Origin: Phycisphaeraceae bacterium
Lineage (GTDB): Bacteria > Planctomycetota > Phycisphaerae > Phycisphaerales > SM1A02
Assembly (NCBI GenBank): GCA_019636735.1
Contig: JAHBWY010000007.1
Location: 1 to 64,000, forward strand
Length of the DNA: 64,000 nt
Direction of reading: 5' to 3'
Shown: in pieces, positions 2,645 through 41,965 of the stretch
Numbering within the stretch: position 1 is the first letter of the stretch
How the letters are laid out: each line of letters opens with the position of its first letter
The notes under the pieces: generated by a model
The model's database searches: none
What the model saw: the letters and a program-made list of their open reading frames with translations, nothing else
Told to the model about the DNA's origin: nothing
Program-made: the position numbers and the translations under genes

Positions 2645-4315
2645 GTGGGACGAACCGCGGTCACGCGCAGCACCGTGCTGGCAGTGGCCACCCTCTTCGC
2701 CGGCGGCTGCATGATCGGTCCCGAGTACGCAACACCGGAGACGAAGGTCAATGCGGAGTGGCTTGAACGCACCGGCGAAGGAACGGGGGTGCTCGAGTCG
2801 CAGGCCCATGTCGAATGGTGGCAGGTCTTCAACGACCCCGTGCTCGATGCGCTCATCGAGGAGGCCTATCGCGAGAATCTCACGCTGCGCACCGCCGGCC
2901 TGCGCGTGCTGGAGGCTCGCGCAAGGCGAGGGATCGCGGTGGGTCGCTTCTTCCCGCAGACGCAGGAGGCGTTCGGGGGAATCGCCGGCAACCAGTTGAG
3001 TGCGAATGTTCCGGGCGGCGAAGGTGATCGCTGGTACGGTTTCAACGAGGTCGGCTTCCAGGCCGTGTGGGAGCTGGACATCTGGGGCAAGTTCCGTCGT
3101 GGCATCGAGGCGGCGGACGCCGAGGTTCTTGCCTCGCTGGCCGACTACGACCAGGTGCTGGTCAGCCTCGTCGCCGAGGTCGCCGCAACCTATGTCGCGC
3201 TGCGCTCCTTCGAGGAGCGGGTGGCCATCGCCCGCTCCAACGCCGACCTCCAGCGGGCCACGCTCGAGCTCACCACAATCCGTTTCGACGCCGGCGCCGT
3301 CTCTGAACTCGATGTGTCGACCGCGAAGGCGACCCTTCTCAACACCGAGGCCACGATCCCGGTGCTCGAGAACGCCATCCGCGAGACGACGCTTGCCCTG
3401 TGCGTCCTGCTTGGTCGAGCGCCGAGCCAGTTGAGCGAGGAGCTCACGCCCCCCGGTGGTGCGCCCCCCAGGGTTCCTGAGGCACCCCCGCAGATCGCCA
3501 TCGGTGTTCCAGCCGATCTCCTGCGCCGCCGCCCCGATGTTCGAGCCGCGGAGCGCCTCGCCGCCGCCCAGAGCGCTCGCATCGGAGCCGCCGAGACCGA
3601 GCTCCTGCCGCGCATCTCGATCGCCGGTCTGACCGGCTTTGCCAGCAGCAACTACCGCGGACTCCGTTCACCCGAACTCGGAAACATCTTCGACGGCAAC
3701 TCCTTCCAGGGGTTCATCGGTCTCGAAATCAACTGGCCCATCCTGAACTACGGCCGCATCATCGGCGCCGTCCGGGCGCAGGACGCCGTGTACGAACAGG
3801 CGGCCGCTGCGTACCAGGATTCTGTCCTGCGCGCTGCCGGCGAAGTGGAGGCGGGCCTCTCCCGGTTCCTCCGTTCGCGCGAGCGCACAACCATGCTTGC
3901 CGAGAGCGTGGTCGCCGCGAAGCGCAGTGTCGAACTCTCGCTCATCCAGTATCGAGCCGGTGCCGTTGACTTCATTCGGGTCAATGACGCCCAGACAGTC
4001 CAGCTTCAGCAGGAGGACCTGCTTGTTGACGCGCGCGCGAGCATTGCTCTCGGCGCGATCGCCGCCTATCGCGGCATGGGTGGAGGCTGGCAGATCCGCG
4101 GCGATTCGGAGCTGGTCGATCCCGCCACCATCGAGCGGATGCGACAGACCGTCGACTGGGGCGATGTCCTGAGTCCCGACTGGTCCCGCGGCTCCGATCT
4201 CGGCTTCCGGCGACCTCGCAGTGACCTCGAAGGCGCCGAGGTCAACCCGCCGCGCGAGGGCGCCACACCCGAGTCATCACCGATGCCGGAGTCCGCCAAG
4301 GGAGTGAACCCATGA
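2645..4315 (+). CDS. RND efflux outer-membrane lipoprotein (NodT/OprM type), copy 1
   Basis: Outer-membrane channel of a tripartite efflux pump, TolC-like trimer. I chose the GTG at 2645 because it gives a compact lipoprotein signal ending LFAGGC (Cys 22), directly followed by MIGPEY, the usual start of NodT-family channels. The frame is open from a TTG at 2510 and has an ATG at 2522, so a longer N-terminus is possible. The body has two outer-membrane efflux repeats: ELDIWGKFRRGIEAADAE in the first half and INWPILNYGRIIGAVRAQ in the second. A Pro/Glu-rich tail of about 70 residues follows the second repeat. The stop overlaps the next gene by 4 bp. Confidence 0.9.
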   Translation: MGRTAVTRSTVLAVATLFAGGCMIGPEYATPETKVNAEWLERTGEGTGVLESQAHVEWWQVFNDPVLDALIEEAYRENLTLRTAGLRVLEARARRGIAVGRFFPQTQEAFGGIAGNQLSANVPGGEGDRWYGFNEVGFQAVWELDIWGKFRRGIEAADAEVLASLADYDQVLVSLVAEVAATYVALRSFEERVAIARSNADLQRATLELTTIRFDAGAVSELDVSTAKATLLNTEATIPVLENAIRETTLALCVLLGRAPSQLSEELTPPGGAPPRVPEAPPQIAIGVPADLLRRRPDVRAAERLAAAQSARIGAAETELLPRISIAGLTGFASSNYRGLRSPELGNIFDGNSFQGFIGLEINWPILNYGRIIGAVRAQDAVYEQAAAAYQDSVLRAAGEVEAGLSRFLRSRERTTMLAESVVAAKRSVELSLIQYRAGAVDFIRVNDAQTVQLQQEDLLVDARASIALGAIAAYRGMGGGWQIRGDSELVDPATIERMRQTVDWGDVLSPDWSRGSDLGFRRPRSDLEGAEVNPPREGATPESSPMPESAKGVNP

Positions 4316-22496: not shown

Positions 22497-22519
22497 CCTG
22501 ATTGACTTCGAGTTCCGAC

Positions 22520-23581
22520 ATGCCGACCGCCACGACCACGCGCCGAACCCGCACCGCCCGCCCCAGTTCCCGACCGAAGAGCGCCTCCGCCGAGCGCGGC
22601 CGCGCCGGTGCAGGCGTCATCCGCGCCTTCATGCGCGAGCACTTCCGTCACTTCAATGCCGCCACGGTGATTGACGCGGCGGACGGATACATCCGGCACC
22701 TCGACAAGGGCGGGCGCATGCTCGTCACGCTCGCCGGCGCCATGAGCACGGCGGAACTCGGGCGTTCGCTCGCGGAGATGATCCGACGCGACAAGGTGCA
22801 CATGATCTGCTGCACCGGGGCCAACCTGGAAGAGGACATCTTCAACCTGGTGGCCCACACCCACTATGAGCGCGTGCCCCACTGGCGCGAACTCCCGGTG
22901 ACCGAGGAGACGAAGCTTTACAAGCGCCACTTGAACCGCGTCACCGATACCTGCATCCCCGAGGAGGAGGCGATTCGACGACTGGAGCGCGCGGTCCTCG
23001 ATGAGTGGGTGCGGGCGGATCGCGCGGGTGAACGCTACTTCCCGCACGAGTTCTTCTATCGCATCCTGCTCTCGGGCAAGCTCAAGAAGTTCTACGACAC
23101 TGATCCCGCAAACTCCTGGCTCCTGGCCGCCGCGGAGCGCCAGTTGCCGATCATCGTGCCGGGGTGGGAGGACAGCACGCTTGGCAACATCTATGCGGCC
23201 CATTGCATCGAGGGCGATGTCAAGCATGTGCACACCGTGCGAAGTGGCATCGAGTACATGATGGAGCTCGCGGAGATCTACGAGCGGACCGCTCCGAAGA
23301 ACCCGATCGGCTTCTTTCAGATTGGCGGCGGCATCGCCGGTGACTTCCCCATCTGTGTCGTGCCCATGTTGCACCAGGACCTGCGCCGCACGAAGGTGCC
23401 GCTCTGGGGCTACTTCTGCCAGATCGGCGATTCAACGACAAGCTACGGCAGCTACTCGGGCGCCAGTCCCAATGAAAAGATCACCTGGGGGAAGCTCGCT
23501 CCGACCACGCCGCGTTTCATGATCGAGAGCGACGCGACCATCGTGGCCCCGCTCATCTTCGCCTATGTGATGGGGATGTAG
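22520..23581 (+). CDS. Deoxyhypusine synthase-like protein (possible homospermidine synthase)
   Basis: NAD-dependent aminobutyltransferase family, 353 residues. The fold is full length: LVTLAGAMSTAELG, then CTGANLEEDIF (counterpart of the TAGGxEED motif), FFQIGGGIAGDF, and the catalytic lysine in ITWGKLAP (Lys325, aligning with the active-site SWGK of human DHS). Bacteria lack the eIF5A substrate, and several bacterial homologues make homospermidine or related polyamines; that role here is inferred, supported by arginine decarboxylase 3 kb away. A Ser/Thr/Arg-rich N-terminal stretch precedes the core. ATG 22520 is preferred over TTG 22502. The GTPase gene begins 10 bp after the stop. Confidence 0.88.
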   Translation: MPTATTTRRTRTARPSSRPKSASAERGRAGAGVIRAFMREHFRHFNAATVIDAADGYIRHLDKGGRMLVTLAGAMSTAELGRSLAEMIRRDKVHMICCTGANLEEDIFNLVAHTHYERVPHWRELPVTEETKLYKRHLNRVTDTCIPEEEAIRRLERAVLDEWVRADRAGERYFPHEFFYRILLSGKLKKFYDTDPANSWLLAAAERQLPIIVPGWEDSTLGNIYAAHCIEGDVKHVHTVRSGIEYMMELAEIYERTAPKNPIGFFQIGGGIAGDFPICVVPMLHQDLRRTKVPLWGYFCQIGDSTTSYGSYSGASPNEKITWGKLAPTTPRFMIESDATIVAPLIFAYVMGM

Positions 23582-23591
23582 GTCACGCCAG

Positions 23592-24827
23592 ATGGCGCAG
23601 CGCGGGTCATCGAACGGTCATCGTGACGATCCCATCGGGCGCGACGGCGACCCGCCGGATGAGACCTTCATCGACCTCGGTGAGGAGAGCGCCTTCCCGG
23701 GCCCCATCGAGGTTCACGATGACCCTTCACCCATCCCGCCTCCGGGCGGCACGCCGGGCGGAGCACGGAGCCCAGGCTCCCGTCCCCCCCCACCACCACC
23801 CGCGCCTTCCGCCGCCCCAACGGATGCGCGAAGCGGCGCGGGACCGCGCCCCAGTCAGCGCGATGTCTCCGGCACCGTGATCCGGCAGGATCGTTCGGTC
23901 TTCAGCCAGCCGGGCGACGATCGCGCAGTTCGAGATCGGATCGTCATCCTGGGCCGACGAGCGAGCGGCAAGACGGTCTTTCTCGCGCGCCTCTACCACG
24001 AGCTCTTCCGCGGTTCGCACGGCCTGTCGATGCAGGCCCTCAACGGGCCCTCGCACCTGCGCTGCCTCAGCGCCATGGATGACCTTGCCCGCGGCCAGTG
24101 GCCTGCGGCCACCGCCGAAAGCGCCGTGATTGAACTCGAAGTCTCCTACCCCGGCGGACGCGAGCGGCTCGTGGCGCTCGACTACCCAGGTGAGGTCTTT
24201 CGCCGCGCGTTCGTCGAGGAACTCTCAGGTCCCGATGTGGCCACGCTGCTTGACCAGGTGGATCACGCCGCGGCCGTCATCATCCTCATCGATCCGGGTT
24301 CAGTCCTCTCGGCCCCCCCCGGAGACCGCGTGGAGGAGGACTTCGGTTCCATCCAGGCGCTCCGGCGCATTCGTGCGACGCACCATGGCGCCCATGTTCC
24401 GGTGGCGGTGGTGCTCACGAAGTTCGATGTTCATCGCTCCATGGTCGAAGCCGCGGGTGGACTGCGCGCCTTTATCCAGCGCTACTATCCGCCGCTGGTG
24501 CGCGAGGCCCCCGGCGCGAAGGCCTTCGGGTGTGCAGCGGTGCGAGCCATTCCCGACCCGATGGGCCGAACGGCGCCGCAGGTTCGAGGTGAACCCGAGG
24601 GATTGATCGAGCCGCTCGTCTGGTGTCTCGAGCGCATGGGCCGGCTTCGCCGCGAAGAGTCGCGCGAAGCTCTGCAGAGCGAGCAATCCCGTCTCCTGGC
24701 CGACGCCATTCGGGCGGAAGAGGAGGCGGAGCGGCGGGAGCGGCGCGTGCTGACTCTCATCTGGAGCTTCGTGGCGTTCGTCGTCATCGTCGGCGGCTTC
24801 ATCGCGTGGTATGTGCTTTCATCTTGA
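23592..24827 (+). CDS. Tail-anchored P-loop GTPase with proline-rich N-terminus
   Basis: A 411-residue protein. Residues 1-110 are acidic and Pro-rich, probably disordered. The G domain follows: G1 GRRASGKT (121-128), G3 DYPG (197-200) in LVALDYPGEVF, G4 TKFD (276-279) and a likely G5 near FGCAAV (312-317). A charged, Glu/Arg-rich helix (about 350-386) leads to one C-terminal membrane helix (about 387-409), so the G domain should face the cytoplasm. It resembles the TRAFAC-type GTPases that are paired with GAP1 proteins in bacterial conflict systems, although I cannot run the profile. The gene is 10 bp after the DHS-like gene and 18 bp before its probable partner. Confidence 0.8.
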   Translation: MAQRGSSNGHRDDPIGRDGDPPDETFIDLGEESAFPGPIEVHDDPSPIPPPGGTPGGARSPGSRPPPPPPAPSAAPTDARSGAGPRPSQRDVSGTVIRQDRSVFSQPGDDRAVRDRIVILGRRASGKTVFLARLYHELFRGSHGLSMQALNGPSHLRCLSAMDDLARGQWPAATAESAVIELEVSYPGGRERLVALDYPGEVFRRAFVEELSGPDVATLLDQVDHAAAVIILIDPGSVLSAPPGDRVEEDFGSIQALRRIRATHHGAHVPVAVVLTKFDVHRSMVEAAGGLRAFIQRYYPPLVREAPGAKAFGCAAVRAIPDPMGRTAPQVRGEPEGLIEPLVWCLERMGRLRREESREALQSEQSRLLADAIRAEEEAERRERRVLTLIWSFVAFVVIVGGFIAWYVLSS

Positions 24828-24845
24828 GGAGGCTTTGCGTCGACC

Positions 24846-26789
24846 ATGCGATTGGGCGTTCATCTCCTTGCGTCTCAGCAGGGCTACCGCACGCGTGCGG
24901 CCAGTCCTGATGTGACTGGCGAGGAGCAGCGGGCGCTCGAAGCACTCGTCTACGGGCAGTCGAACGACCCTGACTTCCTGCGCTCGCTGGAGCGGGAGCC
25001 CGCCGTGCTCGTTCGACCTCTCCCGAGCGGTCGCTGCGCCATCACCCGTCTCTTTCAGGGAAGCCCGGATGATGCCGGGCGCGCCACGCTGGACATGCGC
25101 ACCCTGCTCTGTCCGCTTCCGGACTACGAGCACCTGGTCCGGGGCGACCTCGAGCAGATCCTGCAACGACCTGAGCTCTGGGCCCGCGAGCGCTTCGAGG
25201 AGGCGCGCGTGCTCGCCTTGGCCCACCCGCCGAGGAGTGCGCCGCCGACCATCGGCCCCCGAACCCTGCGACTGGTTGACGCCTACCTCGATGCGCTTGA
25301 TCACAAGCGTCCGACGGTGCTGCTTCCTGACAGCGAAGCGCATCGGCGGGACCTGATCAACCTGGTGCGCGTGCTCGCCTCGGAGGATCTCGCGCAGGTG
25401 CGCTGGGGCCTGCGGGTGCTGTCGCTTGCCGGTGACCCTGATCTTGTGACGGGCGTCGGCGCCGTTGATCGAAGTCGACGCACGATTCTCATGCCGGACC
25501 TGGAGACTCCTCCAGCCCACGAAATCGTGCACTTCCTTGCGGTGAACGCCGCGGCCATCCGGGTGCTTCCGCCCATTGCGAAACTCCGGGGAGGCGAGTT
25601 GTTGAAGTGGATGCTCACGGTGCAGAACGAGCCCGCCTCCGATGAACGGGCCGTACCAGCGCCGGGGGCGTCAACCATCTTTGAATCTGCTCCCCACCGC
25701 CGAGTCACTCGCTCGTCAGGCAAGGTGATGGCGCTCTCGATCGCAGCCGCCGTGATCATCACGGGCGTGTGTCTCGGTCTGGTGATCACGCTGCTCTTCC
25801 TTCGCGATGCGAGAGATTCGGTGCCACCGGGCCAGCAGGCCGCACCGCAGGCGAGCACCGATGAAGGAAGCGAACCTGAAGCGATCGTCCAGTCGCGCGA
25901 ATCGTTGCGAGCGAGAGCACTTTCGCGTCCTGCAACTCGCTCGTCGGGCGGCACCGCAGCACCCGAAGCTTCCCCGTCTCCAACGCCCTCTGTCCTACCA
26001 CCTCCCGAGTCCCGTCCGCCCGACGGAGCGGCGCCCCCCGAACAGCCTGCGTTACCGAGCGGAGCGCCCGCAAGCACTCCGGCCCCTGTGCCGAAGCCAT
26101 CGACTCCACCCGCCGGCGCACCACAACCTGACGACTCCCGGGAGCCAGCCACTCCTCAGACGCCGTCCGCCAAGGCGCTCGCGGTGATCGAGGCTGAGCG
26201 GAGGCAGATCGCCGCTCAGATGGGAGCCTTGGTGGAGCAAGTCGCCCAGCTTCAGAAGGCTCTTCAATTGGCCGCCAGCAGCGGCTCCGCGTCGCGCTGG
26301 GATGCAGCCCGCTGCACGAGAGTGCTCGAAGCAATCGACCGCGTCGACAGGGTCCTCAGCCGAAGTCCGCTCGTCTTCTTCGAAGAAGAACTCAAGCCAT
26401 GGTCGCGCACTCCTCCCCCCGTCTTCTCCGATCTGGATGACTTCCTTGCGCAGATCCCGGCGCTCGTCGCCGCACTCGACGCGACCACGGCGCTCACTTC
26501 GGAGGATGGCCTCAACGCGCTCGTGACCCGACGCAATGCGATCGACGCCGCCGGTCGCGCCACCTGCGCCGGTCCACTGAGCGCCCCGATTCGAGAGAGC
26601 ACCCAGCGCTTTCAGCGCACGATCAACCCCTTCGTGCCCATCGACGACTTGCGACGCTTGAACCGCGAACGCGCGGCCAGCACACAGGAGCGCTTCCGGC
26701 GCGGCATCCGCGAGGGTCTTCGCCGCTTCGCTGACGACCTCGACACCGATCTTCGCGACGCGCTCCGGGCCGCAGCCGCGGCGCCGTGA
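24846..26789 (+). CDS. Membrane protein with GAP1-N-like domain, partner of the GTPase
   Basis: A 647-residue protein that I do not recognise with certainty. Residues 1-260 form a globular domain starting MRLGVHLLASQQGYRTRAAS; the Q-x-GY-x(4)-ASPDVTGEE pattern recalls GAP1-N (GTPase-associated protein 1, N-terminal) domains. One membrane helix at about 295-319 is followed by a Pro/Ala/Ser-rich linker (325-440), a helical segment likely to coil (442-476) and a helical C-terminal domain (to 647). With the N-terminus inside, the C-terminal third would be outside the cytoplasm. GAGGAGG overlaps the GTPase stop codon, 13 nt before the ATG. The 3' end is 6 bp from the convergent speA. Confidence 0.7.
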   Translation: MRLGVHLLASQQGYRTRAASPDVTGEEQRALEALVYGQSNDPDFLRSLEREPAVLVRPLPSGRCAITRLFQGSPDDAGRATLDMRTLLCPLPDYEHLVRGDLEQILQRPELWARERFEEARVLALAHPPRSAPPTIGPRTLRLVDAYLDALDHKRPTVLLPDSEAHRRDLINLVRVLASEDLAQVRWGLRVLSLAGDPDLVTGVGAVDRSRRTILMPDLETPPAHEIVHFLAVNAAAIRVLPPIAKLRGGELLKWMLTVQNEPASDERAVPAPGASTIFESAPHRRVTRSSGKVMALSIAAAVIITGVCLGLVITLLFLRDARDSVPPGQQAAPQASTDEGSEPEAIVQSRESLRARALSRPATRSSGGTAAPEASPSPTPSVLPPPESRPPDGAAPPEQPALPSGAPASTPAPVPKPSTPPAGAPQPDDSREPATPQTPSAKALAVIEAERRQIAAQMGALVEQVAQLQKALQLAASSGSASRWDAARCTRVLEAIDRVDRVLSRSPLVFFEEELKPWSRTPPPVFSDLDDFLAQIPALVAALDATTALTSEDGLNALVTRRNAIDAAGRATCAGPLSAPIRESTQRFQRTINPFVPIDDLRRLNRERAASTQERFRRGIREGLRRFADDLDTDLRDALRAAAAAP

Positions 26790-26795
26790 GCCGAC

Positions 26796-28811
26796 TCAAT
26801 CGCGCTTTTCAAGGTAGGTGTAGCCCGCGAGCCCGCTCTCGTAGGCCCGAACGAGCTGGGCGCTCTCGGCGACGCTCATCTGCTTGGTGCGCACGGCCCG
26901 TTCGCACTCGCGACGAATCTCCGCAAGCAGCTTGTTCACATCGTATTGAACATAGCTGAGCACTTCGCGGACCGAGTCACCCTCGATGATCTCGTCGATC
27001 CACCACTGCCCATGCTCGTCGAGCTTGACATGCGCCGCATGCGTGTCGCCGAAGAGGTTGTGGAGATCGCCGAGCGTCTCCTGATAGGCGCCCACCAGGA
27101 AGGCGCCCAGCAGATACTCCTCGCCCTCGCGGAAGTCGTGCAGCTCGACGAAGCGCTTGATGTCGTGATCGTCGACGAATCGATCGATGCGGCCGTCGGA
27201 GTCGCAGGTGATGTCGGCGAGCGTCGCGCGTCGAGTCGGCCGCTCGGACAGGCGGTGAATCGGCACGATCGGGAAGAGCTGGTGAATGGCCCAGATGTCG
27301 GGAAGGCTCTGGAAGATCGAGAGATTGCAGAAGTAGGTGTCGCTCAGAACACTCTCGAGGTCGTCGAGCTCCTCGGGAACCTCCTCGAGCTCGCGCACCT
27401 TGTCGCGGATCTTGGCCGCCGTGGCCCAGAAGATGCGGTCGCAGAGGGCGCGGTGCTCCAGTGACATGTACCCCAGCGAGAACGAGCGCATCGCCTCGTC
27501 GCGGGCGTCGAGAATGTCGTGGTAGTGCTCGAGAAGCCTTCGCTCCGAGACATTGCGATAGACATCGAAGAGCTCGATGAGCGGTCGCGGCAGTTCATCG
27601 CCCTTCGGCGCCGCAGGGAGCTCCGCAGGCACCGTGAAGCGATCGAGCCGATTCGCACCGAGCACATCGAAGACGAGCACGCTCTGCTGGGCGACCATCG
27701 CGCGGCCGCTCTCGGTCACGATCGTGGGATGCGCCACCCCCTCCTCGTCGCAGATCGACATGATCTTGTAGACAACATTCGTCGCGTACTCAGGCAGCGT
27801 GTAGTTGGTCGAGAACTCGAAGCTCGACTGAGTCCCGTCGTAGTCGATGCCGAGGCCCCCCCCGACATCGATGTACTTCATGCCTGCCCCGAGCTTGGCG
27901 AGCTGCACATAGACGCGGGCGAGCTCGCTCACTCCCGCGTTGACCTGACGAATGTCGTGAATCTGGCTGCCCATGTGGCAGTGCAGGAGCTGAAGGCAAT
28001 CCTGCATCCCGCGGCTCTTGAGGAAGTCGAGCACCTCGAGCACTTCGCTCAGGGAGAGGCCGAACTTCGCCTTGGCGCCGGAACTGTGGCGCCAGCGTCC
28101 CGCTCCCGGGGCCGAGAGGTTCACGCGCACGCCGATGCGAGGCATGATCATGTAACGCTCGGCGAGCTCCACGATGAGCTTGAGCTCAGTGAGATTCTCG
28201 ATGACCGGAATGATGGTACGCCCGAGCTTTCCAGCCAGCGTGACGAACTCGATGTAGCGCTCCTCCTTGAAGCCGTTGCAGATGATGAGGCGCTCGGGAG
28301 CATCGCTCGTCATGCCCAGCACGGCGAGCAGTTCCGGCTTGCTTCCCACTTCGAGTCCGAAGCCCAGCGGGCTGCCATACTGCCGCACCTCTTCCACCAC
28401 GCGGCGCTGCTGATTCACCTTGATCGGATAGACGCCGATGTAGCCCCCCTTGAAGTTCTGCTCGCGAATGGCCGTCTGAAATGCGTCGTGCAGATCGTTC
28501 AGTCGCCGCGAGAGCAGGTCGGAGAAGTGCAGGAGCACCGGCGTCTTGAGACCGCGATCCTGGATTCCCTTGACCACTTCGAAGAGATCGATCTCGCGCC
28601 CCGGCTGACGCGTCGGCCGAACCACGACATGCCCGCGCTCGTTCGCGTCGAAGAATCCCTTGCCCCAGCCGCGCATGTTGTAAAGGTCGATCGAGTCCTC
28701 GACGGTCCAGCCGGGCTCGATGCCATTTCGAGGCGAGCGCTGGCGCTGCGCTGAACCCGCCGCAGCGCTGCCGGCCTGCGGTTCGGTCGAGGGAACATGG
28801 TGCGTTGTCAT
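26796..28811 (-). CDS. speA: Biosynthetic arginine decarboxylase
   Basis: PLP enzyme that turns arginine into agmatine, the first step of the agmatine route to putrescine. At 671 residues it has the family length. The PLP-binding Lys131 lies in GVYPIKVNQQRR; HCHMGSQIHDIRQ, IDVGGGLGIDYDGT and VTESGRAMVA are further alanine-racemase-fold/decarboxylase motifs, and the helical and C-terminal beta parts specific to SpeA follow. ATG 28811 is chosen because GCAGGAGA lies about 10 nt upstream; an in-frame start at 28844 adds 11 residues. It is divergent from the TPR-protein gene and tail to tail with the GTPase-partner operon. Confidence 0.95.
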   Translation of the reverse strand: MTTHHVPSTEPQAGSAAAGSAQRQRSPRNGIEPGWTVEDSIDLYNMRGWGKGFFDANERGHVVVRPTRQPGREIDLFEVVKGIQDRGLKTPVLLHFSDLLSRRLNDLHDAFQTAIREQNFKGGYIGVYPIKVNQQRRVVEEVRQYGSPLGFGLEVGSKPELLAVLGMTSDAPERLIICNGFKEERYIEFVTLAGKLGRTIIPVIENLTELKLIVELAERYMIMPRIGVRVNLSAPGAGRWRHSSGAKAKFGLSLSEVLEVLDFLKSRGMQDCLQLLHCHMGSQIHDIRQVNAGVSELARVYVQLAKLGAGMKYIDVGGGLGIDYDGTQSSFEFSTNYTLPEYATNVVYKIMSICDEEGVAHPTIVTESGRAMVAQQSVLVFDVLGANRLDRFTVPAELPAAPKGDELPRPLIELFDVYRNVSERRLLEHYHDILDARDEAMRSFSLGYMSLEHRALCDRIFWATAAKIRDKVRELEEVPEELDDLESVLSDTYFCNLSIFQSLPDIWAIHQLFPIVPIHRLSERPTRRATLADITCDSDGRIDRFVDDHDIKRFVELHDFREGEEYLLGAFLVGAYQETLGDLHNLFGDTHAAHVKLDEHGQWWIDEIIEGDSVREVLSYVQYDVNKLLAEIRRECERAVRTKQMSVAESAQLVRAYESGLAGYTYLEKRD

Positions 28812-28940
28812 CGTCGGAGCGTCTCCTGCCCGGACCGAAGGCACACCGCCTTCTCATGTGACCACCGGGAGTGCGTGAACAATCAATATAGGCGTACCGC
28901 GCCAAAATGGAAGCGACTTCAGTGCGGTAGTCTGACACGC

Positions 28941-29879: not shown

Positions 29880-29987
29880 GGTCCCGCGTCGAAGCCGAGG
29901 TCCGGCGACAGAGTCAAGATCAGGCGTCTGAGCCAAGGTCCAGCGTCTGAGTCGAGATCAGGCGCCGAATCGAGGTCAGGCGTCGCG
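29875..29987. repeat. Six-unit degenerate 19-bp tandem repeat between convergent genes
   Basis: Units begin at 29875, 29894, 29913, 29932, 29951 and 29970 (the last is 18 bp). The consensus is close to GTCGAGGTCAGGCGTCTGA; adjacent units differ at only a few places, for example GTCAAG/ATCAGGCGTCTGA and GCCAAG/GTCCAGCGTCTGA. The array fills the whole gap between the TPR-protein gene and the Hsp70 gene and covers both stop codons. No T-run terminator is present here. Confidence 0.85.
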
Positions 29988-31790
29988 CAGGCTTTCGGTG
30001 ATCGCGATCTCGTGCATCCGCACGCTGGTCCGGTCGAGCGCCTCCTTCGCTTGGTGCAATCGATCGGGATCGACCGTCTCAAGGCTTCCGCGCTCCACCG
30101 CGTCAACCAGCGACTGAACTTCGGTCATGGCCTGTTCAAGCTGCGCGAGATACGCCGGCTCAAGGCGCGATCGGACGCGATCGAGCGCATCGGCGATCCA
30201 CTTGAGGTCGAGCCGAGCGTTGACCGCGAGATCGATCAGCCGATGCCTTCGCATGTCATCCCTGGCGTGGAGCACGCTCTCGACCTCCATCTGTTCCACT
30301 TCATCAGCAGTCAGGCCGCAACTCGGAACCACCTGGACCCCGGCGCGGCGCCCGCTTCGACGCTCCACCGCGCTGACGGTGAGCACGCCATTCTCATCGA
30401 CGAGGAACTCGACCTCGATCTGCGGAATGCCCGCGGGCATGGGCGGAATGCCTCGCAGATCGAAGCGAGCGATCGACCGGCAATCACGGACCAGTTCCCG
30501 CTCGCCCTGAAGGACATGGATCAGGACGGAGGTCTGGCCGTCGACGCTCGTCGAGAAGCGCTCGACGGCGCGGGTGGGCACCGTGCTGTTTCGCATCAGA
30601 AGTTTCGCGACTCCCCCGCCGCGCGTCTCGATGCCGAGCGAGAGCGGAATGACATCGAGCAGCAGAAGATCGCGCCGCGCGCCGTCAACGATCGCAGCCT
30701 GCACCGCCGCACCGAGCGCCACGACCTGGTCGGGATCGAGCGCGATGTAAGGTTCGATCCCGAAGAGCCCTGCCGCGGTGCGGCGGACCGCAGGCATGCG
30801 CGTCATGCCGCCCACCATGACGACGCGATCGATGGCAGGCCTGCCCGCGTCTTCGAGGGCACGGCGACAGCACTGCGCCACGCGCTCAAGCAGCGGCTCG
30901 ACCGCTCTCTCAAAGTCCTCCCGGCGAATGACGACTTCCTCGCCGTTCTTCCCAAGTCCCGATCGAAAGAGCGCTTCGTCCATCTCCGAAAGGAGTCGCT
31001 TGACACGCTCCGCCTCGCGCCGCAGCCTGCGAGCCTCGGCCGGACTCGCCTCGCTTGCACCGGGCACAAGTGACTCAAGCGCGCGGTCGAAGTCATCGCC
31101 GCCAAGGCGCGTGTCACCTGCGGTCGAAAGCACTTCGAAGAGCGCGCCATCCTCGGCCCCATGTTCAATGCGCAGCAGAGAAATGTCGAAGGTCCCGCCG
31201 CCGAGGTCGAAGACCGCGACGGTCTCCCCCTGCCGACGATCGAGCCCATAGGCGAGCGCCGCCGCCGTGGGCTCGTTGACGATGCGCTCGACCTCGAGAC
31301 CCGCCAGCCGTGCCGCATCGCGCGTCGCCTTTCGCTGCGCGTCATCGAAGTACGCAGGGACCGTGATCACCGCGCGCCGAACCGTCGCGCCGAGTTCCCG
31401 CTCGGCGATCGTCCGCAGCGCGTCAAGAATGCGCGCCGCCACTTCCTGCGGTGTCCGAACGCCGTCGGGCGTGGCGAACGCGGCGATTCCACGAGGTCCC
31501 TCCGCAAGGGCCAATCGAAGATCCGCCGCAAGGGCGCGGCTCTCCGATTCGCTGCGCCCCATGAAGCGCTTGGAACTGGCGATCGTGACGCTCTCGGGCG
31601 GCGGATCGGGGTCGTCGCGTGCTGGCCACCCGACCAGCGGCGCCTGGCCCGATTCGAATCGCACGACCGATGGCAGCAGCGAGCGGCCTTCCGAATCGCT
31701 CAGCGCACGCGGGCCGCGCTCATCGCAGATCGCCACCAGCGAATGAGTCGTGCCGAGATCGATGCCGACGCACGGACCTCGCTCACTCAC
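29976..31790 (-). CDS. Hsp70-family chaperone, HscA/DnaK-like
   Basis: ATP-dependent chaperone of 604 residues, cytoplasmic. The nucleotide-binding domain has the phosphate loops VGIDLGTTHS and VFDLGGGTFDISLL, the connect motif VNEPTAAALAYGLDRR and the adenosine motif VVMVGGMTRMPAVR. A substrate-binding domain (about 385-510) and a helical lid follow, without the DnaK-type EEVD-like C-terminus. The nucleotide-binding domain is shorter than DnaK around GGDDFDRALESLV, as in HscA. No iscU, hscB or ferredoxin gene is nearby, so a specific iron-sulfur role is not supported by context. The start overlaps the upstream lipoprotein gene by 4 bp. Confidence 0.88.
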   Translation of the reverse strand: MSERGPCVGIDLGTTHSLVAICDERGPRALSDSEGRSLLPSVVRFESGQAPLVGWPARDDPDPPPESVTIASSKRFMGRSESESRALAADLRLALAEGPRGIAAFATPDGVRTPQEVAARILDALRTIAERELGATVRRAVITVPAYFDDAQRKATRDAARLAGLEVERIVNEPTAAALAYGLDRRQGETVAVFDLGGGTFDISLLRIEHGAEDGALFEVLSTAGDTRLGGDDFDRALESLVPGASEASPAEARRLRREAERVKRLLSEMDEALFRSGLGKNGEEVVIRREDFERAVEPLLERVAQCCRRALEDAGRPAIDRVVMVGGMTRMPAVRRTAAGLFGIEPYIALDPDQVVALGAAVQAAIVDGARRDLLLLDVIPLSLGIETRGGGVAKLLMRNSTVPTRAVERFSTSVDGQTSVLIHVLQGERELVRDCRSIARFDLRGIPPMPAGIPQIEVEFLVDENGVLTVSAVERRSGRRAGVQVVPSCGLTADEVEQMEVESVLHARDDMRRHRLIDLAVNARLDLKWIADALDRVRSRLEPAYLAQLEQAMTEVQSLVDAVERGSLETVDPDRLHQAKEALDRTSVRMHEIAITESLRDA

Positions 31791-38579: not shown

Positions 38580-39530
38580 TCAGGAACCGCTGCCATCTCG
38601 AAGCATCGGGGGCACGCCTGCTCGCGTTCTCGAGGGCGGCTCGTGGTACTTGTAACCGGAGTTCGGGTTCCGCTTGTCGTAGGCGAAGGCCTCGCGATTG
38701 CGCAGGAAGTCCTTCACATATCGCGAGGGGATCGCGAAACCCATGTTCTCGCCGAACATGAGCTTCATATTGGTGATGCCGATCACTTCGCCGCGGGTGT
38801 TGAAGAGCGGGCCACCGCTGTTTCCCGGGTTGATGGGCGTGTCCGTCTGGATATAGGTTCGTCCACCCATGCTGCGACGCGGCGTGCTGATCACGCCCTG
38901 GGTCAGCGTGCGCTCGAGCCCGAGAGGATTTCCGATCGCGAAGACCGGCTGACCGATCTCGAGGCGCTCCTCGCGTTCGAGTGGCGCGGGGACATAGGTG
39001 CGGCCCGGCACTACTGGAAGCTGTACGAGCGCCAGGTCCATTTCGTTGTTCACCGCGATCAGTTCCACATCGTCAATATCGCGGCGCGTCAGCGAACCGT
39101 CGGCCTCGGGGAACCAGACCGTCGCCTGAAGCTTGGTCTCGCCCTGCACGACATGGGCGTTGGTGATGGCGTGGCCTTCGCGATTGATGATGACACCTGA
39201 GCCGAGACCGCTCGGTGTCCGCACCTTGATGACCGATGGGCCGATGATCTTCGCGTGCTCCTTGGGCGACATGGTGGGCGAGTTCACCGCCACGAAGAAG
39301 AGATCCTCCGCAGCCACCTCGGCGGCCTGCGCCGGCGCCGCGGTGACGATGTCGCCGACATCTTCAAGTTCGAGAACCACGACATCGGGACCGATGTCCA
39401 CCCAGACCCGGCGATCCGTGCGCTTCAGGATCTGACCTTGGACGACGGCCCCGCTCTTGAGGGTGACGACATCCTTGGCGTCCTCAGTGACGGCGCCAAG
39501 CGCCACGGCAACGATCAAGGCCTCGAACAT
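38580..39530 (-). CDS. Secreted HtrA-like trypsin-family serine protease without PDZ domain
   Basis: A 316-residue protease exported by an N-terminal signal-like helix (MFEALIVAVALGAV). Residues 20-62 form a small beta domain (VVTLKSGAVVQGQI) like that in the DUF481-type protein. The protease domain carries the triad His126 (TNAHVV), Asp165 (NNEMDLALV) and Ser238 (NPGNSGGPL). After it there are only about 60 residues, so the PDZ domain typical of DegP/HtrA is missing. ATG 39530 is chosen; the frame extends to 39617 through the divergent promoter region. It is divergent from the FG-GAP protein gene with 77 bp between starts. Confidence 0.88.
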   Translation of the reverse strand: MFEALIVAVALGAVTEDAKDVVTLKSGAVVQGQILKRTDRRVWVDIGPDVVVLELEDVGDIVTAAPAQAAEVAAEDLFFVAVNSPTMSPKEHAKIIGPSVIKVRTPSGLGSGVIINREGHAITNAHVVQGETKLQATVWFPEADGSLTRRDIDDVELIAVNNEMDLALVQLPVVPGRTYVPAPLEREERLEIGQPVFAIGNPLGLERTLTQGVISTPRRSMGGRTYIQTDTPINPGNSGGPLFNTRGEVIGITNMKLMFGENMGFAIPSRYVKDFLRNREAFAYDKRNPNSGYKYHEPPSRTRAGVPPMLRDGSGS

Positions 39531-39576
39531 GGTGTGGATCCTCGGGAGTGCAAGAGCGTTACTATAAGCGTTCCCC

Positions 39577-39590
39577 CTCCCGCAAGGGAG
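39577..39590. promoter_or_regulatory. Small GNRA-type hairpin in the divergent region
   Basis: CTCCC (39577-39581) pairs with GGGAG (39586-39590) around a GCAA tetraloop. It lies in the 77-bp region between the protease and FG-GAP gene starts and ends 17 nt before ATG 39608, just ahead of the AAGGA ribosome-binding site of the plus-strand gene. Confidence 0.3.
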
Positions 39591-39607
39591 CTTCACCAAG
39601 GAACACC

Positions 39608-41965
39608 ATGACAGCACGATCTTTCCGGCGCACCACGCTGGTCACCCTGATGTCCACCCTGGCCGTCTCCATGGCTCCAACCATGGCGGTCGCCGACGAT
39701 CTCGCGGGCTACTTCGGATTCGAACCGCTCGAGGTCATCAAGATCGATCCGCGGGCCGGCCCCTTCATCGTGGTGGATCTCAACGGCGACGGCCTGCTCG
39801 ACATGGTGGCCGTCAACAACCACAAGAGCCGGCTCGACATCCTCTATCAGAAGAAGGGCGCCCTCCCGACCGATGAGCCGCCACCACCACGAGGTCCGAA
39901 CGAGCTCCCCGATCACTGGCGCTTCCGGCGCGACAGCATCACGGTCAGCCACGAAGTGAGAGGCGTTGTTCCCTACGATTTCGATCACGACGGGCTCATG
40001 GACCTGATCTATGTCGGAGTGCCGGGGCACATCGTCTTCATCCGGCAGACGAGGGCGGGCGTCTTCGAAGTGACGCGCCGAATTCCCGTGCGCGGGCTCA
40101 ATGCGAACCGCGATGCAATCGCCATCGCCGATGTCATGGGCGACGCCAAGCCCGAGCTCATCACGATCGTCAACGGACGCATCTCCATCTGGCCCCTTGA
40201 TGGCGACAACCTCGGAACGCCGGTCGAGCTCTCGCCCGGCACGGGCAACATCATCGCGGTGCTCATCGATGACTTCGATGGCAACGGCACGAAGGACATC
40301 GTCGGCGTGATGCCGGATGACGCCTCGCCAATCCGGGTCTGGTTCACTTCGCGAGATGGCGACAAGACGGTGATCGGCCCGCAGCTTCGATTCGAGAGCG
40401 TGCCGCTGCGCGAAGCGGCGGCCGTGCGCCTGCCGACCCGCAATGCGGCGCTGCTCGGGCTCATCGAGCGCCCGAGCAAGAGGACCGTGTTCTACGAGTT
40501 TGGCCGGACTCCGATCGATCGCAGTGGCGATCGACAGACCGCCATCCAGACCTGGAGCTGGGAAGACCCGGGCAATCGCCGACGCGACTACGCGGTGGTC
40601 GACCTCGACGGCGACGGCTTCCTCGATCTTCTCGCCACCAACACGCAGACGAACTCGATCATGGCGTACCTCCAGCGCGCCGGGCGGGGCTTCGATCGCG
40701 CCGTTGCCAATCCCTCATACGCCGATCTCAACGGCGTCGCGGCGTATGCACCGACCGGTGGCCCAGTGCAGGTGTTCGCACTCTCAGAGAAGGAGGGCGT
40801 CGCCGGTCGAAGCGTGGTCGAGGACGGTCGCATTCCCTTCCCGCAGGCGCTGCGGCTCCCGTCGGGCGTCACGCCCTCGACCATGGCGCTTCTGCGCGTC
40901 GCGGGTTCGACCCGCGTAGGCGTCGTGTGCAAGGATGGCCGCAACTTCACCTTGGAGCTCATTCCTCCCGACGGTTCCGAGGAAGGTCGGCAATCGATTG
41001 CGCTCGGACAGCTCTCCCGCGCACCGGAAACGATGATTGCCCTTGAGGCCGGCGATGGTGCCGCGAATGTCCTCTTCTTCACTCCCGATCGACCGTTGAC
41101 GATGGCGCACTGGGACGGGCAGTCGTGGAAGGTGCTTGAAAGCAAGGACATGGGACAGTTCGGGCTGGTCCAGGCGGCCAGTGGCCTGAACACCGCCGTC
41201 TTCGATGTCACCGGCGACGGCCAGCCGGAACTGCTGGTCGCCGATCGCAACTTCATTCGCGCGCTTCGATACGACCCGAAGCCCCCCGCCGGCCAGAGCC
41301 CCGGCTGGCAGGTGGTCGAGCAGATGAATGCGCTCGCCCGCGACGCCAAGCTCAACTCGCTCACCATCATGGGCGACCGCGTGGTCGCGGGCGACTCGGA
41401 CAACGGCAAGCTTCTCTTCTTCGCCCGCGAGAGTGCCTCGGACGCGAGTGGGTCCACGGCCGGATCAGCGCAGGTGTGGCGACAGGTCGATGTCGTCGAC
41501 ATTCCCTCATTCAAGTTCAACCGACTGCACTCCGGTCACTTCTCGGGTGACACGCAGGACAACATCCTGCTCATCGGGGACGATGGATTTGCCGTGGTGC
41601 GCCTCGCCGGCGATCGGATGCGCATGCATGAGGTGGCGAGCTATGTGAGCGATGATCCGCGCCGCGTCCATCACGAAATGGTGGTGGGCGATGTCAACGG
41701 CGACGGCTTCACCGATGTGGTCCTGCTTGATGCCGGCCAGCAGATGGCCGAGATCCTCACCTTCTCCGAGTCGGAGCGGGTGATGCTGGGCAATCAGTTT
41801 GCTGTCTTTGAGAGCCGACTCTTCACAAGCGGAGAACCGCGCGAGTTCGAGCCGAGCATGGGGTGGATCGCCGATGTCACCGGCAACGGCCTCAAGGATC
41901 TCATCCTGCTCGCCCACGATCGCCTGCTCCTCTACCCGCAGCAGGCGGAAGCCAAGTCTCCCTGA
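39608..41965 (+). CDS. Secreted FG-GAP/VCBS repeat protein
   Basis: A 785-residue exported protein with a signal peptide ending VADD. The mature part is a beta-propeller-like array of FG-GAP/VCBS repeats with calcium-binding Asp/Asn loops: DLNGDGLLDMV, DFDHDGLMDLI, DDFDGNGTKDIV, DLDGDGFLDLL, DVTGDGQPELL, DVNGDGFTDVV and DVTGNGLKDLI. Such proteins usually sit on the surface or in the periplasm and bind ligands. AAGGA at 39598-39602 is 5 nt before ATG 39608 and fixes the start. A protease gene is divergent from it and the YbjQ-family gene is 40 bp downstream. Confidence 0.88.
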   Translation: MTARSFRRTTLVTLMSTLAVSMAPTMAVADDLAGYFGFEPLEVIKIDPRAGPFIVVDLNGDGLLDMVAVNNHKSRLDILYQKKGALPTDEPPPPRGPNELPDHWRFRRDSITVSHEVRGVVPYDFDHDGLMDLIYVGVPGHIVFIRQTRAGVFEVTRRIPVRGLNANRDAIAIADVMGDAKPELITIVNGRISIWPLDGDNLGTPVELSPGTGNIIAVLIDDFDGNGTKDIVGVMPDDASPIRVWFTSRDGDKTVIGPQLRFESVPLREAAAVRLPTRNAALLGLIERPSKRTVFYEFGRTPIDRSGDRQTAIQTWSWEDPGNRRRDYAVVDLDGDGFLDLLATNTQTNSIMAYLQRAGRGFDRAVANPSYADLNGVAAYAPTGGPVQVFALSEKEGVAGRSVVEDGRIPFPQALRLPSGVTPSTMALLRVAGSTRVGVVCKDGRNFTLELIPPDGSEEGRQSIALGQLSRAPETMIALEAGDGAANVLFFTPDRPLTMAHWDGQSWKVLESKDMGQFGLVQAASGLNTAVFDVTGDGQPELLVADRNFIRALRYDPKPPAGQSPGWQVVEQMNALARDAKLNSLTIMGDRVVAGDSDNGKLLFFARESASDASGSTAGSAQVWRQVDVVDIPSFKFNRLHSGHFSGDTQDNILLIGDDGFAVVRLAGDRMRMHEVASYVSDDPRRVHHEMVVGDVNGDGFTDVVLLDAGQQMAEILTFSESERVMLGNQFAVFESRLFTSGEPREFEPSMGWIADVTGNGLKDLILLAHDRLLLYPQQAEAKSP

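Follow-up and report, generated by a model that had tools for sequence, protein, structure and literature searches.

Is a GTPase gene that lies directly upstream of a gene for a membrane protein part of a conflict system, a signalling device or a piece of cell housekeeping? We asked this of a gene pair in a 64,000-nucleotide (nt) window of a Phycisphaeraceae bacterium contig (JAHBWY010000007.1, positions 1 to 64,000; all coordinates of the pair count along this window), in which P0001, the product of the GTPase gene, is followed by a downstream partner, P0002. The GTPase-centric GAP1-N2 conflict systems, which combine a DO-GTPase with a GAP1 protein, were described by Kaur et al. (2020, eLife 9:e52696, PMC7159879). 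We found no experimental study of DO-GTPase/GAP1 systems in the literature searched, where they are predicted by comparative genomics only; 'GAP1' stands for GTPase-associated protein, and the name carries no demonstrated GTPase-activating function. Our analysis favours a reading of the pair as a membrane-bound, two-gene variant of these systems, most likely a transmembrane GTP switch, to which we give a probability of roughly 0.55.

P0001 is a tail-anchored DO-GTPase

P0001 consists of a Pro-rich N-terminus (residues ~1-110), a GTPase domain (~114-350) and a C-terminal membrane helix. Its scores against the Pfam models DO-GTPase1 (39.1 bits) and DO-GTPase2 (39.3 bits; PF19975/PF19993) both exceed the cut-off of 27, and it carries the motifs G1 (GRRASGKT, 121-128), G3 (DYPG, 197-200) and G4 (TKFD, 276-279). 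In 59 homologues with a partner gene, the catalytic positions of G1 (GxxxxGKT), G3 and G4 (TKxD) are 97-100% conserved, and the Walker B glutamate E201 (DYPGE; DxxGE in the family) is present in 59 of 59. Because both models are over cut-off and the motifs are conserved, assignment to the DO-GTPase family is direct, and by sequence P0001 is a TRAFAC-type member with its motifs intact. Hydropathy revealed one hydrophobic helix, residues 386-404 of 411 amino acids (aa), a predicted tail anchor. A first-pass annotation, made from the letters of the window, had described just such a Pro-rich, tail-anchored GTPase with G1, G3 and G4 motifs, and that description stands. P0001 had no sequence relatives in the PDB beyond noise.

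P0002 belongs to a divergent GAP1-N2 subfamily

The same annotation had given P0002 an N-terminal domain resembling GAP1-N, one membrane helix, a Pro-rich linker and an outer helical domain. Hydropathy and AlphaFold agree with this architecture: residues 1-262 are predicted to be cytoplasmic, with a predicted local distance difference test score (pLDDT) mostly ~90, and residues 442-645 were modelled as helical with low confidence. The GAP1-N resemblance could be narrowed to N2. Among related loci, Pfam GAP1-N2 is matched by 21 of 22 N-termini and is the only family to recur with a good E-value; in the genome search, subfamily loci in G289, G341, G114, G212, G221 and G310 scored over the GAP1-N2 cut-off. 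We then compared the subfamily, profile to profile, with about 30 canonical planctomycete proteins that have both GAP1-N2 and GAP1-M domains (GAP1-N2+M), using hhalign. A four-sequence alignment initially gave just E 0.007 (probability 5.5), which deeper alignments resolved: 22 sequences yielded E 1.1e-4 with a score of 38.8, compared with a best score of 20.4 among 100 scrambled decoys, and 59 sequences yielded E 4.4e-6 over 180 colinear columns spanning the canonical N and M domains. This alignment enters the canonical M domain and stays colinear to P0002 residue ~198. A DxxGR motif (P0002 residues 75-79) is invariant in the subfamily, and its D and R (D75 and R79 in P0002, D81 and R85 in canonical proteins) are fully or almost fully conserved in both groups and stand in the same register. 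The matching N-termini, the loci over cut-off and the profile-profile E-value together settle the relation of the subfamily to GAP1-N2, and P0002, as judged through intermediate members, is homologous to GAP1-N2 as part of a divergent subfamily.

The C-terminal half of P0002 gave no Pfam match, GAP1-C included, and the C-terminus varies between relatives. A search with the C-terminal region (residues 442-647) matched just L113, a locus of the same genus. We discarded any functional meaning drawn from the fold of this outer domain, as its matches were generic helical bundles and the model was of low confidence.

The pair is conserved as a unit with variable additions

We found the GTPase in 28 of the 397 genomes sampled from the class, 22 of them at E <1e-30; canonical GAP1-N2 proteins over cut-off were present in 104. 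The named loci come almost entirely from uncultured Planctomycetota, many of them under the label Phycisphaerae/Phycisphaerales; the closest lies in Phycisphaerae bacterium genome VGXK01000147.1. Conserved linkage of the two genes, on which the first-pass annotation had staked its reading, was borne out: of the non-identical GTPase genes, 67 have sufficient sequence downstream, and in 59 of these the partner gene comes directly next, usually at a spacing of 0-65 nt. Of the eight unlinked loci, three hold the leading gene of a GTPase tandem and two hold a fragment. The pair is not a chance find of open reading frames, as homologous adjacent pairs occur in dozens of genomes. By hydropathy, every one of 70 partners has a membrane helix after its N/M part, and 48 of 60 GTPases have a C-terminal helix. 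The tree distances of the GTPases are correlated with those of their partners (r 0.75, permutation maximum 0.16). Genes inherited together should behave in this way, and the correlation alone does not prove binding.

Relatives differ in what accompanies the pair. In 12 of 42 clusters a third gene encodes a membrane-anchored trypsin, composed of an N-terminal segment, a membrane helix and a protease domain; complete proteases mostly retain the histidine and GNSGGP serine motifs. Elsewhere GTPase, membrane helix and trypsin are fused in one protein (L025/L132 and L119), and the L025 and L119 fusions are a direct hint that the GTPase may control a protease across the membrane. Further variable components include a vWA protein, Prok-RING/PDZ proteins and a borderline FHA protein.

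Several features of individual relatives are recorded here as observations. In the fusions at L025:7741-9525 and L119:7905-10241 the trypsin-like part is extracytoplasmic and keeps intact His and Ser motifs. At L079:794-2455 (no FHA Pfam score) and L072:10946-12667 (borderline score), similar-looking proteins whose start is FHA-like are encoded directly upstream of the GTPase. A subgroup with a long partner (~840-850 aa) comprises L024:10113-12647, L067, L145, L150 and L155; the outer part of the L024 partner carries bacterial thrombospondin type 3 repeats, with a sigma-70-family gene upstream, and in L024, L145, L150 and L155 a canonical set continues the same gene run.

The window pair compared with known GAP1-N2 systems

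The pair resembles the systems of Kaur et al. in its GTPase family, in a partner encoded just downstream, in membrane association and in outer domains; membrane helices on GAP1 were already remarked there, planctomycetes are among the systems listed, and some of these are coupled to a GYF protein with a trypsin (PMC7159879). In contrast to those systems, the window GTPase is tail-anchored and lacks N-terminal zinc ribbons, its GAP1-N2 protein belongs to a divergent subfamily, with P0002 itself below the Pfam cut-off, the partner has one membrane helix that always follows the N/M part, an FNIII component is missing and, in the window, so is an effector. GAP1-N2 systems are listed with an FNIII component and an effector, and some carry HSP70 (PMC7159879). 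The protein families are already known and named; the tail-anchored GTPase with a single-pass GAP1 forms a distinct, widespread planctomycete variant, of which we found no description as such.

Several observations count against assigning the pair to these systems, or weaken what can be built on it. P0002 by itself scored 17.8-20.8 bits against Pfam GAP1-N2 (PF20013), below the cut-off of 24; that value marks a limit of detection rather than anything biological. Pfam GAP1-M found no match in the subfamily, though canonical controls match, so that of the profile checks proposed by the first-pass annotation DO-GTPase held, GAP1-N2 held by way of the subfamily and GAP1-M gave no Pfam match, while the profile alignment does run into the canonical M domain. 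Neither P0002 nor either GAP1 profile matched any PDB chain by sequence. PADLOC returned nothing meaningful for the pair; its sole match, PD-T4-6, sits on the Pro-rich stretch 269-440 of P0002 and was taken as composition bias. Common descent also contributes to the co-occurrence, the linkage and the tree correlation. The longin-type matches that head the structure lists of both models described below have Z-scores of 6-8, a range common for models without a clear match. Beside the window pair there is no obvious effector or protease (the neighbours are DUF308, deoxyhypusine-synthase-like and arginine decarboxylase genes), and no FNIII-repeat component was found there; the first-pass annotation had likewise seen no known effector nuclease or protease domain. 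Because the FNIII component and effector are not alongside, we do not file the window pair as a complete GAP1-N2-type conflict system.

Two other genes of the window were considered as components and set aside. A Trypsin_2 protein (38580-39617), which has an N-terminal hydrophobic helix, lies 12 kb off with other genes between; it may conceivably supply an output, but we found nothing that links it to the pair. An Hsp70 gene (29976-31790, 604 aa) lies ~3 kb away with genes on both strands between, and a role as component is unsupported.

Genomic surroundings

The genes of the pair, their predicted domains and their neighbours are listed in Table 1. A strong Shine-Dalgarno sequence (GAGGAGG) precedes the P0002 ATG in the 18-nt spacer between the genes, a distance that, like the coordinates of the two genes, agrees with what was first reported. 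Upstream, 10 nt separate P0001 from the deoxyhypusine-synthase-like (DHS) gene, which is itself preceded by a DUF308 gene; the DHS-like gene is probably co-transcribed with P0001. The DHS-like and arginine decarboxylase genes flank the pair in a polyamine locus (22502-28844).

Table 1 Features of the gene pair and its flanks in the 64,000-nt window
Feature	Position	Strand	Basis
DHS-like gene	22502..23581	+	Pfam DS 2.4e-40
Tail-anchored DO-GTPase P0001, 411 aa	23592..24827	+	Pfam, motifs, transmembrane prediction
P0002 whole gene, GAP1-N2-type partner, 647 aa	24846..26789	+	Open reading frame
P0002 GAP1-N2-like N-terminal domain	24846..25238	+	Pfam match best over residues 9-80; longin-like layout of the AlphaFold model, residues 1-131
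P0002 GAP1-M-like second lobe, residues ~132-262	25239..25631	+	Profile alignment colinear to ~198; pLDDT mostly ~90
P0002 single membrane helix	25716..25814	+	AlphaFold helix 291-323; hydropathy peak 301-319
P0002 Pro-rich disordered linker, residues ~324-441	25815..26168	+	pLDDT <50; sequence
P0002 predicted extracytoplasmic helical domain, residues ~442-647	26169..26786	+	AlphaFold, low confidence; C-terminal search
Arginine decarboxylase gene	26796..28844	Convergent with the pair	Neighbour of P0002

This setting raises the possibility of a housekeeping operon, in which DUF308, DHS, GTPase and partner together serve growth or polyamine/envelope homeostasis. Both genomes of the genus share this gene order; the DHS and GTPase genes overlap by 4 nt in G001 and are 10 nt apart in the window. 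No effector is adjacent, and no promoter- or terminator-like site was seen in the region, which is a weak test. However, DHS genes occur in 25 of 41 relatives, and most of these genes do not have the pair beside them; no DHS gene occurs in the stretch examined around the pair in 41 other clusters. G036 has the DHS and arginine decarboxylase genes side by side and convergent, some 17 nt apart and with no pair there, so the window pair looks inserted beside the polyamine genes, as this arrangement suggests. The first-pass annotation had left open a housekeeping envelope role or a signalling one; the signalling option survives, and housekeeping is disfavoured because the subfamily occurs patchily (in 28 of 397 genomes) and its relatives carry trypsin, vWA and other variable parts. 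We regard a housekeeping operon as unlikely. Origin of the pair from a mobile element was likewise unsupported: there is no tRNA at the pair (the sole tRNA-Pro is at 3052), no phage record or PHROG match and one weak plasmid match at 25% identity, and the guanine-plus-cytosine content of the pair is 0.678 compared with 0.660 for the window.

Canonical sets in the same genome

The genome of the window (G000) also encodes, on contig C10 (locus L026, C10:40000-59900), a canonical GAP1-N2/GAP1-M protein with both domains well over cut-off, in which it differs from P0002; the GTPase gene next to it has a sub-threshold DO-GTPase2 match only. The N and M domains of this canonical protein are profile-related to those of the pair and of the same predicted fold class. 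L026 further contains a 984-aa protein without a Pfam match and several small membrane proteins (one begins like ...FSFQDIMAAVTG...), and these small proteins recur beside canonical sets in the relatives L028 and L029.

The pair might therefore be the regulatory half of a larger system, in cross-talk with the canonical C10 set and supplying the second ('double') GTPase. In addition to the presence of the canonical protein and the DO-GTPase-like gene in the same genome, a canonical DO-GTPase/GAP1-N2 set lies within the same gene run in six other clusters, and co-occurrence is enriched: a canonical set is present in 12 of the 22 genomes with strong matches to the subfamily versus 92 of the other 375 (Fisher p 0.003), and a within-family test gave p 0.008 among the matches listed. 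Yet the two sets are on different contigs in the genome of the window, most of the clusters examined show no canonical set, and 10 of the 22 genomes with strong matches have no canonical match over cut-off. Such cross-talk seems improbable to us. That the pair is a decayed, non-functional remnant of a once-complete system is very unlikely: the window pair lacks an effector and relatives have a third-gene protease, but both reading frames, the G-motifs and DxxGR are intact, and the same arrangement in the second genome of the genus, at 53% (GTPase) and 38% (partner) protein identity, would need purifying selection.

The GAP1 N/M part may have a longin/DENN-like fold

We compared the predicted structure of P0002 with known structures, using as a replicate an independent AlphaFold model (pLDDT 94) of the canonical GAP1 (N+M) from the same genome. 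Both models matched TagF (P0002: Z 7.6, root-mean-square deviation 5.1 over 240 residues; canonical GAP1: Z 8.0, 4.5 over 199 residues) and a Lokiarchaeal longin domain (Z 7.0 and 7.4, respectively). Other leading matches of both were DENND10, DENND1A/1B, FLCN/FNIP2, Lst4, C9orf72-SMCR8 and GATOR1 chains, at Z about 5-7; these last are all longin or longin-DENN proteins with known effects on GTPases. In both models the order of secondary structure in the N-terminal domain (beta2-alpha-beta3-alpha) fits longin. PAS/LOV domains were also among the matches, and the longin domain has been described as a PAS-like fold (PMC3521125).

Longin/DENN regulators, among them DENND1A/1B, DENND10, FLCN-FNIP2, C9orf72-SMCR8, GATOR1 and Lst4, are thus, with TagF, the best structural matches of the GAP1 N/M part, whose predicted strand-helix order fits theirs; they and TagF share no sequence similarity with it and reach Z 6-8. 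The models make a longin/DENN fold plausible; because Z is too low and there is no sequence support, we do not claim it as proven. Longin/DENN proteins bind or regulate GTPases (PMC8213707, PMC3521125), and Arg147 of SMCR8 is the catalytic arginine of a longin-type GTPase-activating protein (PMC8213707). The signal recognition particle (SRP) receptor, in which the longin (SRX) domain of SR-alpha holds the membrane GTPase SR-beta (PMC4686813), offers a working analogy of a membrane GTPase held by a longin domain; no sequence relation is claimed. TagF has been reported to be similar to the Sec22b longin domain (PMC3325213); within the type VI secretion system, to which it belongs, its reported binding partner is Fha rather than a GTPase (PMC5995506). 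The FHA-like proteins encoded upstream of the GTPase at L079 and L072 are of note in this respect, TagF being the best structural match of the partner. No type VI secretion genes were seen among the neighbours examined, and no search of the genome for them was made. The paper that named GAP1 (PMC7159879) does not mention longin, DENN, roadblock or TagF.

A tentative extension, which we hold less likely than the switch itself, is that GAP1-N/M is a bacterial longin-DENN-type module for GTPase regulation whose DxxGR loop acts on the DO-GTPase as the SMCR8 arginine does, with R79, by analogy, as the hypothesized counterpart. The module of the subfamily would then be a single-pass receptor linking the state of the GTPase, in either direction, with an extracytoplasmic domain or a trypsin.

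Proposed function of the pair

In a transmembrane GTP switch, the two anchors would keep the cytoplasmic domains of P0001 and P0002 together at the inner face of the membrane, where the N/M part may bind the GTPase and read or set its nucleotide state, as longin/DENN modules do with small GTPases, the invariant DxxGR loop being a candidate contact. The membrane helix and the flexible linker could couple the nucleotide state to the outer domain. The membrane-anchored trypsin would be the output arm in relatives, encoded by a third gene or fused past the membrane helix of the GTPase; in the genus of the window, which has no adjacent protease, the outer helical domain may act as a sensor or ligand-binder, or recruit an output encoded elsewhere. 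The signal could run in either direction across the membrane.

The pair probably works as a signalling module that spans the membrane and is gated by the GTPase, and it is probably accessory, not housekeeping. The subfamily is patchy and modular and shares gene clusters with canonical conflict-system sets, which makes accessory signalling in envelope stress or against invaders likelier than housekeeping; a role in conflict or immunity is a prediction. As a two-gene, effector-free version with a fixed topology, the pair is the simplest form in which to test whether GAP1 binds and regulates its GTPase and in which direction the signal runs. If the longin/DENN resemblance is true, it would link these bacterial systems to the eukaryotic GTPase regulators of membrane trafficking and nutrient sensing and give GAP1 a testable biochemical role; if the module reading is also true, bacterial conflict systems would share regulatory logic with eukaryotic Rab/Rag/Arf control.

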